This document shows positions 25,146 through 34,095 of a stretch of DNA of 64,000 bases, one piece after another (within the stretch, counting starts at the first letter, position 1; the number at the start of each line of letters is the position of its first letter). Both the position numbers and the translations under genes were made by a program. Source of the DNA: Okeania sp. SIO2B3 (GTDB lineage: Bacteria; Cyanobacteriota; Cyanobacteriia; Cyanobacteriales; Microcoleaceae); contig NZ_JAAHGH010000003.1 in NCBI RefSeq assembly GCF_010672525.1, positions 1-64,000 on the forward strand. Reading direction: 5' to 3'. The notes under the pieces were generated by a model. It was given only the letters and a program-made list of their open reading frames with translations, was not told where the DNA came from and searched no databases.

Positions 25146-25673
25146 CCCACATTCCGCACTTCAATTTGTAACATGAAAATTAGTATAAAATCTGTAGCAA
25201 ACTTAAGCATTTATACTATGCAAGTTATCTCAATTACTTTTTTCGTTCATCAAATTCCGAGCAAACAATTAAGCATAAATACTTACTTAATTGGGGTTTG
25301 CTGAAAAAGTCTTTTTGCTCTTTGTAGGAGACAGGAGACAACCCACCCGCGGGCCCCGACCGTGGAGGGGAAGACAGCTATACTGGAGAAATGGGAATGT
25401 AGAGGAGGTAGGAGCGGGCGTTTTGTCCCAAAATTGTTCTGCCCAACTCTTGCACAAAATGCTAGTTTTTTGAGCAATCTTTACCGAAAACAGGCGCACC
25501 CCTTTTAATCTAAAACAGCTAAAACCTTTATCTATCAATGCTTTGATATTTAATCAGCAAGCCCTAATTGTTTACTCAATCACGACAGCTATGATTTTCT
25601 CCTAAATTCTGAGGACTGAGGACTGAGGACTGAGGACTGATTATATACTACATTTTGTGGTGCGGAATGTGGG
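25146..25673. mobile_element. R2 element with perfect 14-bp ends
   Basis: CCCACATTCCGCAC (25146-25159) and GTGCGGAATGTGGG (25660-25673) are perfect inverses. An R1 element sits inside. The homologous stretch at about 3740-3913 lacks that insertion, giving a natural empty site. Confidence 0.8.
25290..25570 (-). mobile_element. R1 element nested in R2
   Basis: Left TTGGGGTTTGCTGAAAAAGTC, right GATATTTAATCAGCAAGCCC, with TAATT on both sides. Absent from the same position in the R2 relic near 3810. Confidence 0.75.
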
Positions 25674-26635: not shown

Positions 26636-28789
26636 ATGCAAAACACTATGCCAAAACACTACCTGTGGGCTATAGGTGAAGGGATCAAAACCTATCGGCC
26701 AGGAGAAATAATAGTAGATCGTTATCAAGTTCAAGGCGATCGAATACTACTGGATACTCAACCAGAAAAAACACCCCAGATGCCCGAAGAAATTCCGGGT
26801 GAAATAGAACCATATTTGAGATTATTTCCCTATAGACTTCATATTCCTCAAGTTTATGGAATTTTATCAGTAACAGAAAAAAAAAGGACTCGAGAAATTT
26901 GGCTCCTAGAAGGAGGGCCAATTGATGCCAATTCAGGAAGCTTAATGCCAGAAATAGCTAGAGCATGGAAAGATGCTACACCAATGCGACAGTTAAATTG
27001 GTTATGGCAAATGGCTCAACTTTGGCAACCGTTGAATGTGCAAAAAGTAGCTTCTAGTTTGCTAAATTCAGAAAATCTGCGGGTAGAAGGACAATTAGTA
27101 CGCTTATTAGAGCTACAAGCAGATCGAAAATCTTTGACATTACAGCACTTAGGTAGATTCTGGCAGAAATGGGCAAGCAATGCTCATCCAGTAGTAGAAA
27201 AATTCTTGAAACAACTGTTTCACCAAATGATTACAGGTGAAGTCCACAATGCAGATCGACTGATAGTACAACTAGATCTAGCTCTGGAAGTATTGGGGCG
27301 ATCGCAAATTAGAAAAATTCACATTGCCACTGCTACAGATACTGGACCTAATCGTTCTAACAATGAAGATGCTTGTTACCCAGCGAGTAAAACAATGATT
27401 AGCTATCCACCGAGTTATAAAACAGTAGCTATGGTCTGCGATGGTATTGGTGGTCAAGAAGGAGGGGAAGAAGCATCAGAGTTAGCAATCAAAGTTTTGT
27501 GCCAAAGATTACAGAATATACCTGAAGATGGAGATCCTCTGACTATAACTACAAAGTTAGAAGAATCTGCTTATGTTGCTAATGATGCTATCTATGAGCG
27601 TAACGATAACGAGCAACGCCAGGGTCGTCAACGGATGGGAACGACTCTAGTTATGGCACTTGCCCATCTCCACGAACTCTACATCACTCATATAGGAGAT
27701 AGTCGTGCTTACTGGATTACTCCAACTCGATGCCATCAAGTAACTCTAGATGATGACGTTGCGACTCGTCAAGTCAGATTAGGCTACTCTTTATATCAGG
27801 ATGCTGTCAACCAAGTAGCATCAGGTGCTTTAGTACAAGCTTTGGGTATTACGGCCTCAACAAGTTTACATCCAACTGTACAACGTTTTCCAATAGATGA
27901 AGATAGTATTTTCTTGATTTGTTCTGATGGTTTAAGCGATAGAAATAGAGTAGAGGAATATTGGCAAACAGAAATATTACCATTGCTACAAGGGAAAACA
28001 AATCTAGCTACAGTGAGAGATAGATTAATAGAAATTGCTAACGCTACAAATGGGCATGATAATGTAACAGTAGCTTTAGTGTATTATCAAGTAACTGATC
28101 AAGGTCAGATAACAGAATTGTCTCTTCCACCTGTAAAAGTTCAGCATTTAAAAGTACAAAAATCACGAAAAAATTCGGAATTTAATTCATCAGATAGTCA
28201 ATTTTTCGAGAATAAACCCAAAAATTTTCCATATGACTCAGAATATAAAAGTGGGTGGTTTTACTTGTCAGGAATTCTGATACTTCTGGTATTAGGTGGA
28301 ATATTAGCATATTTTTTAAGTCCCTTAGCAAAAGAATTAACACAGCCATTGGATGTAAAGTCTCCAAAGATTAATACTTTTGCAGCAAATACGGAAAAGC
28401 CTAGCCAACAACCAAATTCCATATTTTCTCCTAGTTTATCTTTGGATATAGATTCATTGATATTGATTAATCATGGCGATATTTCTCGCGAAAGGTTACA
28501 CGAACCGATTGAATTACTAAATAATACAACAAATAAGAAAGTTATAGGTATAGTTAGTAATGGTAGTATTCTCCAGGTAACTAGAAAATTGAATAAATCG
28601 GAAGAAACATGGTTAGAATTACAGGTTTGTTCAACTGTAACTCCTTCAAATATTGACCTAGAATTATCTAATGTTTTACTACAACCAAAAGATAAAGGTT
28701 GGATTCAAAAAGTTAAAATAGAGAGTAGCTTGGGTGTCATTATTTTGGAAAGAAATTCAGAAAAAATAGATGGGTGTGTAGAAGATTAG
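26636..28789 (+). CDS. Membrane-anchored PP2C-type Ser/Thr phosphatase
   Basis: 717 residues from ATG 26636, with GAGGA 7 nt upstream. Residues 1-225 form an N-terminal region of unknown fold. PP2C spans about 228-490: ATDTGPNRSNNEDA with metal ligands Glu245 and Asp246, VCDGIGGQEGG with Asp270, HIGDSRAYW, CSDGLSDR and GHDNVTVA. All metal Asp are present. One membrane segment follows (about 542-564, YLSGILILLVLGGILAYFL), then an external domain to the end with an SH3b-like pattern (VIGIVSNGSILQV ... GWIQKVKIE). It lies 47 bp before a Ser/Thr kinase whose C-terminal membrane module is nearly the same, so the pair probably works on one signal. Confidence 0.85.
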   Translation: MQNTMPKHYLWAIGEGIKTYRPGEIIVDRYQVQGDRILLDTQPEKTPQMPEEIPGEIEPYLRLFPYRLHIPQVYGILSVTEKKRTREIWLLEGGPIDANSGSLMPEIARAWKDATPMRQLNWLWQMAQLWQPLNVQKVASSLLNSENLRVEGQLVRLLELQADRKSLTLQHLGRFWQKWASNAHPVVEKFLKQLFHQMITGEVHNADRLIVQLDLALEVLGRSQIRKIHIATATDTGPNRSNNEDACYPASKTMISYPPSYKTVAMVCDGIGGQEGGEEASELAIKVLCQRLQNIPEDGDPLTITTKLEESAYVANDAIYERNDNEQRQGRQRMGTTLVMALAHLHELYITHIGDSRAYWITPTRCHQVTLDDDVATRQVRLGYSLYQDAVNQVASGALVQALGITASTSLHPTVQRFPIDEDSIFLICSDGLSDRNRVEEYWQTEILPLLQGKTNLATVRDRLIEIANATNGHDNVTVALVYYQVTDQGQITELSLPPVKVQHLKVQKSRKNSEFNSSDSQFFENKPKNFPYDSEYKSGWFYLSGILILLVLGGILAYFLSPLAKELTQPLDVKSPKINTFAANTEKPSQQPNSIFSPSLSLDIDSLILINHGDISRERLHEPIELLNNTTNKKVIGIVSNGSILQVTRKLNKSEETWLELQVCSTVTPSNIDLELSNVLLQPKDKGWIQKVKIESSLGVIILERNSEKIDGCVED

Positions 28790-28836
28790 TTAGACATAAA
28801 GGCGTTAAAGTTTGATCACTGATAACTGAAAAAACT

Positions 28837-30254
28837 ATGCAATCTGGAAAAATCTTAAGACAACGTTACAAAATTATCGACTCTCCTCTTGGAAGTGGAG
28901 GATTCGGAGATACCTACTTAGCTCAAGACTTAGATCTACCAGAAAATCCGAAATGTGTAGTTAAACAACTCAAACCTAAAAGTTCAGACCCAGGAGTTTT
29001 GCCTATTGCCCAAAAGTTGTTTGAGAGAGAAGCAAGGACTTTGTACAAATTAGGCAAAGACTCAGACCAAATACCAAAATTATTTGCTCATTTCCAAGAA
29101 GGAACAGAATTTTACTTAGTACAAGAATATATAGAAGGGCACGATATAAGTAAAGAACTGACTGGGGGAAAAAATTAAGTGAGTCTTACACTATCACCTT
29201 ACTCAAAGGAATCTTAGAAGCATTAGCAGTAGCTCATCAAAATAATATAGTTCACCGAGATATTAAGCCACAAAATTTGATGCGTCGTAAGTCAGATAAC
29301 AAAATAGTATTGATAGACTTTGGTGCAGTCAAAGAAATAAGTGTACTAACCACAGCTAACCAACCAGGTGCAACAACTTTCACTGTAGCAGTGGGAACAC
29401 CTGGGTATATGCCAAGCGAACAAACTAGAGGACAACCAAAACTAAGTAGCGATATCTATGCAGTGGGAATGGTAGGAATAAAAGCACTGACTGGTAAAAA
29501 CCCAGAAAATTTACCAACAGACCCCAAGACAGAACATATTATCTGGCGAAATGAAGCACGAGTGAGCGATCGCCTAGCAAATACTTTGGATAAGATGGTA
29601 CATGAATATTTTCTGCTGCGTTATGAAAATGCAACAGAAGTATTAGAAGCATTAAATATTCAAACTGGCCAAATAAAAACAGTAGTAAAAACTGGTCAAA
29701 CAAAAACAGTAGTAGTAAACCCTCAAACCCCACTCAATAAAAGCAGAAGACAAATATTGATATTAGAAATATGGATATTAGGAGGTTTGGTATTAGTAGG
29801 TGGAATATTGGCATATTTTTTAAGTCCTTTAGCAAAAGAATTAGTACAGCCATTGGATGTAAAATCTCCAAAACCAAATTCCATATTTTCTCCAAATTTA
29901 TCTTTGGATATAGGTTCATTCATTTTGATTAATCATAGCGCTAATTCTCCCGAAAGGTTACACGAACCAATTGAATTACTAAATAATACAACAGATAAGA
30001 AAGTTAAAGGTATAGTTAGTAATGGTAGTATTCTCCAAGTAACTATGAGATTGAATAAATCGGAAGAAAGTTGGTTAAAATTACAAGTTGTTTGTTCAAC
30101 TGAAAGCTCCTCAAATATTGACCAAAAATCTAATGTTTTACTACAACTACAAGATAAAGGTTGGATTCAAAAAATCAAAATAGAGAGCAACTCGGATGTT
30201 ATTATTTTAGACAAAAATTCAGAAAAACTAGATCTATGTTTCAAGAATTATTAA
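28837..30254 (+). pseudogene. Ser/Thr protein kinase, one-base frameshift
   Basis: Frame 1 (28837-29178) gives the kinase N-lobe: YKIIDSPLGSGGFGDTYLA and CVVKQLKP. It then hits TAA after a six-A run at 29169-29174. One added A restores GGKKLSESYTITLLKG, and the second frame runs on to HRDIKPQNL, IDFGAVKE and GTPGYMPSEQ, then a membrane segment (ILGGLVLVGGILAYFL) and an external SH3b-like domain ending at 30254. All kinase motifs are kept. Either a recent pseudogene, a sequencing error in a homopolymer, or expression by slippage on the A run. The C-terminal module copies that of the upstream phosphatase at DNA level. Confidence 0.8.
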
Positions 30255-30261
30255 TTAATAA

Positions 30262-31076
30262 TTAGGGCTTGCTGATTAAATCTAAAATCATTAACAGATA
30301 AAGCTTTTAGCATTTTTAGGGCTAGAAAAAGTGCTAGAAGTGAGGTCAAAAAGGTTTAAAAAGTTAGCACAAAAGGCTAACTAGGACAGAAAAATTAACA
30401 GACCATTTTTCCGACTACCTCCTCTATAGAACCCCTAAGTGTATCTTTAATTTTCTCTTTTTTGTCAGTCAGGCGATCGCCAATCATCCAAAAGTAGTTT
30501 CACCCCTCAAAATTAGACAAGAAGGGAAAAATATAGATTTAACTTATCACGTTAGTAATTAAAATTATTTATTTTAATCAAACAAGCTCCGGTTTTTTCC
30601 AAATTATTACAAAATATTTCACGCACTTGCGTTATTTCAGGCATTTGGTATCATAGTCTGTACATAAAGTATTTTGCCAATGTTGTGTTTAAAAGTAAAA
30701 TATTCTGTCTTGAATAAAGCTACAAGCAAGTATTTACGTTAATATCATCCAGAATATTTATATTTTTGGCAAAGGTGAATAATCTCAAAACGAGAAATTT
30801 TAGACAAGTAGAAATGCTTAAGTAATTATAGCTATTGACAGATAACAAGTTACATAGAGTAATAAGTTGCGGCCGGCTTTTATAGTCCTAAGTTCATAAT
30901 TTTTCGGTTTCCAGCAACCCTGATAGTTGTTAGGCTGCGATGAATTCGGCTTTCTGTCAGCCAATGTATTTCAAGAAAAGATCCGGTTAGGGGTTTTATA
31001 ACTCCAATTTATTCTTACTCCTGTCTGCTGACTCCTACCCTCAACCATAAGACTTTTTCAGCAAACCCTAATTAAT
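30262..31076 (+). mobile_element. R1 element with long internal insertion
   Basis: Left TAGGGCTTGCTGATTAAATC, right ACTTTTTCAGCAAACCCTAA. Between them a 576-bp segment is bounded by TATAGAACCCCTAA (30425-30438) and TTAGGGGTTTTATA (30987-31000), inverted with one mismatch, so it may be another element. No gene is seen inside. Confidence 0.55.
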
Positions 31077-31129
31077 TGTTAACAAATACATCTCCTTGAA
31101 AAGAAGAGGATTGACTCATTTAGTTTATA

Positions 31130-33440: not shown

Positions 33441-33872
33441 AATTATTAATTATTTGGTAAGAGGGAAGATGTGGGGAGAAATAATACAAAAAACACTCCT
33501 TATAGCTGATTTTTCGTCAAAATTGATGCGCGAAAAGACTTGACTACCATAATTATATAGCGATCAAATGGGTTCTATAGTAGGCAACAGGCAGCAGTGG
33601 GAAAAATATTTCTCTGTCTCAGGTTTATTATCAGCATAAGTCCTAACCAACCTATTCTTTGCTATAGATTAAATAGATTAACTTAGCTACTCAGTAGGTC
33701 GAGTACAAAATTTCATACTTGAGAATATTTTTGACAGATAATACTGAGTTTTTACAGAGTTAAAATCAGTATTATCTACACTGTAAATTGACAATTATTT
33801 CAGCTTAATAATTGTTCTGTCTAACAAATAATTTTATTTAAAGCGCTATCTATCCGTTTTGGATTTGTTATA

Positions 33873-34095
33873 ATTAGGACTTGCTGATTAACTTTCAAAG
33901 CATTGACAAATAAAGGCAAGTGCTTTTTTAGATCGAAAAAAGTGGTCTAAAAAGCTCAAAAATTTAGTATTTTGTGCATACAAGGTCAGAAAAGTCAAGG
34001 AATAATTCTTCCGACTACCTCCTCTTAATTAATTCCCATTTCTACGGAGTTCTAAGTTCTACCCTTACCAAAACTTTTTTTCAGTCAACCCTAAT
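33873..34095 (+). mobile_element. R1 miniature element
   Basis: TAGGACTTGCTGATTAACTTTC on the left, the GCATTGACAAATAAAGGCAA core, TTTTTCAGTCAACCCTAA on the right. About 220 bp, uninterrupted. Confidence 0.65.

Follow-up and report, generated by a model that had tools for sequence, protein, structure and literature searches.

Several bacterial systems bring Ser/Thr kinases and PP2C phosphatases together. The PASTA-type kinases and their cognate PP2C phosphatases (PrkC-PrpC, PknB-PstP, Stk1-Stp1) are encoded by adjacent, probably co-transcribed genes (review PMC6213207). Fused PP2C-kinase proteins occur in Pseudomonas, and a Synechocystis kinase with a transmembrane segment and an SH3b domain has been described (both in PMC1262709). 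Cyanobacterial C-lectin kinases have been described among the targets of diversity-generating retroelements and among the paralogues of such targets (PMC7517822). How kinases and phosphatases become matched pairs is an open question.

The locus described here, from a 64,000-nucleotide stretch of the cyanobacterium Okeania sp. SIO2B3 (hereafter the window), resembles each of these systems in part. As in the PASTA-type pairs, genes for a membrane Ser/Thr kinase and a PP2C phosphatase are adjacent, but in place of an outer PASTA sensor on the kinase, one SH3b-like domain is common to both enzymes, and only two of the species sampled have the pair; a Pfam scan of the kinase of Okeania sp. SIO3B5, the second of these, found no match to PASTA repeats. 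The catalytic and juxtamembrane parts of the Okeania kinase resemble those of the cyanobacterial C-lectin/FGE Ser/Thr kinases (80–89% identity to the nearest), yet it has a phosphatase tail instead of an FGE/C-lectin domain. It can be likened to the Synechocystis protein by architecture alone (kinase, membrane helix, SH3b), and differs from it in having a tail copied from the phosphatase next to it. The phosphatase, like the Pseudomonas fusions, has a kinase fold and a PP2C domain in one polypeptide, but here the kinase fold is N-terminal and without catalytic motifs, and the polypeptide also has a membrane anchor and an outer domain. The NCBIfam serine/threonine phosphatase PRK14559 has a similar catalytic domain, yet the Okeania PP2C falls below its curated cutoff (E 1.7e-81, score 274.9 against 374).

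A phosphatase and a kinase with one outer module

The features of the locus, all on the + strand, are as follows.

26636..28789, +, PP2C-type phosphatase, made up of a pseudokinase, the PP2C domain, a membrane helix and an SH3b-like outer domain (ORF; Pfam PP2C_2, E 1.1e-12; metal-site motifs)
26711..27307, +, N-terminal kinase-fold domain without kinase motifs, a predicted pseudokinase (AF2 model; top-scoring PDB matches are kinases)
28271..28318, +, phosphatase membrane helix (19 residues with a mean hydropathy of 2.4; also present in orthologues, where it is conserved)
28290..28777, +, phosphatase copy of the duplicated module, comprising the second half of the helix, the linker and the SH3b-like domain
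28448..28780, +, extracytoplasmic SH3b-like domain of the phosphatase, with two conserved Cys (AF2, structure matches, alignment)
28790..28836, +, 47-bp spacer between PP2C and kinase; right end resembling leader sequences in the donor family of kinases (GATAACTGAAAAA ahead of the ATG)
28837..29178, +, kinase N-lobe ORF with an early stop, ending in ELTGGKN
29164..29178, +, G5A6 run followed by a premature TAA (G6A6 in the intact orthologue)
29175..30254, +, rest of the kinase, read in the -1 frame and comprising the C-lobe, the juxtamembrane part, the helix and the outer domain (Pfam Pkinase, E 1.3e-20)
29754..29822, +, membrane helix of the kinase, holding the fusion joint
29794..30239, +, kinase copy of the duplicated module, its linker shortened by a 42-bp deletion
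30240..30266, +, 3' end of the kinase gene with its flank, which match those of outgroup PP2C genes

The phosphatase ORF (+ strand, 26633/26636–28789, 718 aa) is intact; with its PP2C domain and its metal-binding Asp motifs (NED, DGIGG, GDSR, SDGL and DNVT, all present) it belongs to the PP2C (PPM) phosphatases. The arrangement given in an earlier note on this DNA, of a PP2C gene followed after 47 bp (28790–28836) by an adjacent kinase gene on the same strand, was correct. So was its observation that the two genes have a membrane-sensor module in common: DNA repeats of 81–92% identity connect 28290–28799 with 29794–30261, and the phosphatase tail as a query matches the kinase tail with a protein identity of about 75–76% (E 1.2e-51). 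In a genome-wide search of the 10-Mb genome these were the only two copies of the tail, and chance likeness is thereby excluded. The copies are not "nearly identical", as that note had it, since the module has 88% DNA identity over 150 codons and 76% protein identity, with dS 0.226 and dN 0.111.

AlphaFold2, run on a 39-row alignment of the tail, gave a confident small beta domain with core pLDDT above 90. Its best PDB matches were the N-terminal domains of the cyanobacterial NlpC/P60 endopeptidases 2evr and 2hbw (Z 7.2; rmsd 3.8 and 2.7 over 75 and 73 residues), followed by endolysin and autolysin domains of SH3b type. The pattern GSILQV...WLELKVCS...GWIQE agrees with such a fold, only one of the 39 tails had a Pfam SH3 match by sequence (SH3_3, E 0.0019), and Pfam and PDB sequence searches with the tail gave no clear family. 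The model and the structure matches thus agree with what had first been guessed from the sequence pattern, and provide moderately strong support for a predicted SH3b fold. Two cysteines are almost invariant in the alignment, compatible with a possible extracytoplasmic disulfide.

The AF2 model of the phosphatase N-terminus (about 200 residues; pLDDT 89, pTM 0.84) has the fold of a protein kinase. Nearly all of the best matches listed by Foldseek and VIA-align are kinases, among them YabT (Z 12.0 over 194 residues), PknB (Z 11.1) and the kinase-like domain of Rv3910 (Z 11.1). In the alignment, by eye, the P-loop, HRD and DFG are missing, and the domain is a predicted degenerate kinase, or pseudokinase, with the kinase fold minus the catalytic motifs. 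The relation is apparent from the fold alone, hhalign giving no significant match to the kinase at the sequence level. Of 116 cyanobacterial genomes sampled across the class, 94 have the domain, frequently in two or three genes each, and a second copy lies in this same genome (G000:C228:329190). The pseudokinase-PP2C architecture is thus widespread in cyanobacteria; a literature search for pseudokinase, PP2C and cyanobacteria together found no paper, which is not proof of absence. The cyanobacterial phosphatase to which we draw notice here, with its pseudokinase and its SH3b-like outer domain, is widespread and apparently uncharacterised.

Direction of transfer and source of the kinase

A profile search across 149 genomes of the order found the tail in 90, nearly always single and in a frame of PP2C length, and found it on a kinase in two of the 149 only, those of this strain (G000) and SIO3B5 (G001). 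As the tail is on the phosphatase across the order and on the kinase in two genomes, these sequences establish that the module passed from phosphatase to kinase. That the tail is instead an ancient SH3b domain inherited independently by both genes we consider highly improbable: some cyanobacterial kinases do carry SH3b domains (PMC1262709), but the independent origin is contradicted by the 88% DNA identity of the two tails, by their being the only copies in the genome, by the restriction of the kinase tail to two of 149 genomes, and by the different domains borne by the other members of the kinase family.

The kinase catalytic part derives from an expanded family of FGE/C-lectin Ser/Thr kinases in Okeania and relatives, to whose nearest members the identity given above refers; most of the closest have an FGE-sulfatase domain at the C-terminus (L081, E 7.5e-53). 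In the studied kinase no FGE/C-lectin C-terminal domain is present, and a PP2C-type tail stands in its place. The fusion joint lies within the membrane helix, where kinase-family RRQILILG is joined to phosphatase-type GGILAYFLSPLAKEL. Because TGGTATTAG at the joint is common to the kinase-family and phosphatase sides, a fusion by short-homology join is plausible.

The explanation that we favor, and think probable, is a sensor transfer by gene fusion, in which the phosphatase tail was placed onto the kinase, with later divergence, exchange and loss. An FGE/C-lectin receptor-kinase gene would have come to adjoin the PP2C gene in an ancestor of the sampled Okeania, and the kinase's own outer domain would have been swapped, at the membrane helix, for a duplicate of the phosphatase helix and SH3b-like domain. 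Such a transfer between opposing enzymes is rare and natural, and as the fusion, the source family, the joint and the later fate can be read from a few related genomes, the locus amounts to a small natural experiment in sensor transfer. A literature search for sensors shared between a kinase and a phosphatase found none, which does not prove that none exist.

The FGE/C-lectin kinase family is expanded in Okeania (L081–L100; in this genome on contigs C1, C157, C168 and C169), and several members are broken. One member in this genome (L095, G000:C1:80484) ends in a CAP domain instead of FGE, so outer-domain replacement in the family was not a single event. In the leaders of the kinase genes L082–L099, and at positions 28812–28825 of the window, repeated GATAACTG octamers stand immediately upstream of the start codon.

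Age, exchange and probable loss

A recent duplication or conversion in this genome, as proposed in the earlier note, is not supported, although a duplication between the two genes did take place: the dS between the window's PP2C and kinase tails, 0.226 (95% CI 0.13–0.35), exceeds the species divergence of about 0.13. Between the window and SIO3B5, dS is 0.135–0.141 for the kinase catalytic part and 0.129–0.134 for that of the phosphatase, and as the two are equal for the same species pair, the kinase predates the split. On these values the copies are older than the divergence of those sampled Okeania species that bear the kinase. Kinase catalytic dN/dS between the window and SIO3B5 is 0.14, which indicates that this half was under purifying selection and hence that the fusion was probably functional in the past.

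The two tails would since have diverged and exchanged short tracts at least once. Within SIO3B5 the tail dS between PP2C and kinase is 0.060, below the species divergence, and both tails have a private segment, SSTVAANTEK; these together point to a later conversion in SIO3B5 and not in the window, and SIO3B5 is the only genome in which later homogenisation is visible.

Among the five Okeania genomes, kinase and phosphatase occur together in two and the phosphatase without the kinase in three (1I7, 2C9 and O. hirsuta). The kinase 3' end, CF.NY plus TAATTAATAATTA, resembles the end of outgroup PP2C genes (CFNN, with a similar flank), and the phosphatases of the window, SIO3B5, 2C9 and hirsuta have a derived CVED end; a shared end of 16 nt suggests that 2C9/hirsuta may once have had a kinase. 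The 1I7 phosphatase module is a mosaic, its first part identical to the window PP2C at 138 of 139 positions and the rest, which has kinase-type features near the end, at 315 of 356 (p 2e-15 against the rest of the gene). Its 3' segment, with a dS of 0.105 to the SIO3B5 kinase tail and 0.181 to that of the window, is nearer the former. A tree of the PP2C genes joins the window to 1I7, then to SIO3B5 (support 99), and 2C9 to hirsuta (100); kinase-less 1I7 is thus nested with the window inside a clade with SIO3B5. The GAPDH grouping is weaker and not identical to this tree.

The simplest reading of these features would be one insertion before the five Okeania diverged, with later loss of the kinase in 1I7 and, probably, in 2C9/hirsuta. 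Exchange between Okeania species, instead of one gain and repeated loss, could also have brought the kinase to the window species and SIO3B5, as its patchy presence and the mosaic, recombining tails might suggest, but kinase dS matches PP2C dS for the same species pair and the end features of 1I7, 2C9 and hirsuta fit a former kinase presence. We regard exchange as quite unlikely, and infer loss as the source of the patchiness.

The kinase tail has a dN about five times that of the catalytic part (0.099 vs 0.020; Fisher p 5e-7) at similar dS. This speed, together with the frameshift described below, the absence of the kinase elsewhere and the broken paralogues in these genomes, could be taken to mean that the fusion is a passing outcome of the birth and death of genes in a large family of kinases: an accident with a weakly constrained tail, decaying and without joint function. 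Purifying selection nonetheless kept the catalytic part across the window–SIO3B5 split, and in outgroup phosphatases without a kinase the tail dN (0.10–0.17) is also above the catalytic (0.06–0.08), so the speed is partly general to the outer domain and fast tails alone do not amount to decay. We consider such a by-product somewhat unlikely.

Beside a conserved downstream gene and GAPDH in two Trichodesmium-group genomes lie decayed remnants of PP2C tails (L101, G025:C8; L102, G010:C213), so in these relatives the phosphatase itself decays at its site; no kinase remnants were found near them.

The interrupted kinase and possible joint function

The kinase (28837–30254), which the earlier note took as one gene, is not contained in a single open frame in the SIO2B3 assembly. 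A G5A6 run at 29164–29174 is followed by a stop codon at 29176–29178, and HRD and DFG are located in the remainder, in the -1 frame from 29175. The SIO3B5 orthologue (L034:3823–5271) has G6A6 and is open over 482 aa, with the Hanks-type motifs GxGxxG, VVK, HRD and DFG all present (Pfam E 4.9e-32); the window kinase has the same set spread over two frames. As the frame is kept in SIO3B5 and at the G/A run of the other family members shown, the break in the window amounts to one missing G, either real or an assembly or sequencing error. If real, the phosphatase alone operates in this genome.

One may still suppose a stable writer/eraser system with one sensor that works in this strain too, the frameshift being such an error or bypassed at the slip site A AAA AAU immediately 5' of the stop. 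The catalytic half is conserved, the window copy has no further stop, the SIO3B5 orthologue is intact, and one-base gaps in homopolymers typically arise by sequencing or slippage. A slip site of this sequence, however, arises automatically from a one-base deletion of such kind, the structure downstream of it is no greater than chance (z +1.0), which led us to reject ribosomal frameshifting, and the pair is missing from three of five Okeania and 147 of 149 genomes; we think a stable system unlikely. No kinase was found beside the phosphatase at the other PP2C loci retrieved (flanks up to 6 kb). The pair with shared tails is therefore not the conserved system that had been proposed. A chance duplication, which the earlier note would have read from a pairing unique to this strain, is likewise not established, given the purifying selection on the kinase and the pair in SIO3B5; homologous phosphatases are, all the same, mostly without a paired kinase. 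What is present is a well-resolved, lineage-restricted sensor transfer, broken in this assembly.

As to how the fused kinase worked, our best working idea from these sequences is that opposed enzymes may have responded to one envelope cue. From the position of the helices, the kinase and PP2C domains would lie in the cytoplasm, with the SH3b-like domains beyond the membrane. In genomes with an intact kinase, the two outer domains may meet a single envelope site or ligand, which in view of the SH3b relatives might be peptidoglycan, and the two enzymes would thereby be co-localised and regulated together, perhaps acting in opposition on the same substrates. That three of five Okeania species manage without the kinase weighs against a joint function. 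Only tentatively do we suggest that the kinase was recruited as a partner of the phosphatase by the copied sensor, under one envelope signal, and that the pseudokinase may contact the kinase.

A dispersed, partly inverted repeat lies around the locus (25288–25569, 30258–30426, 31017–31077 and 33870–33941). It looks like a small non-coding mobile element and is also scattered at the homologous loci of other Okeania.
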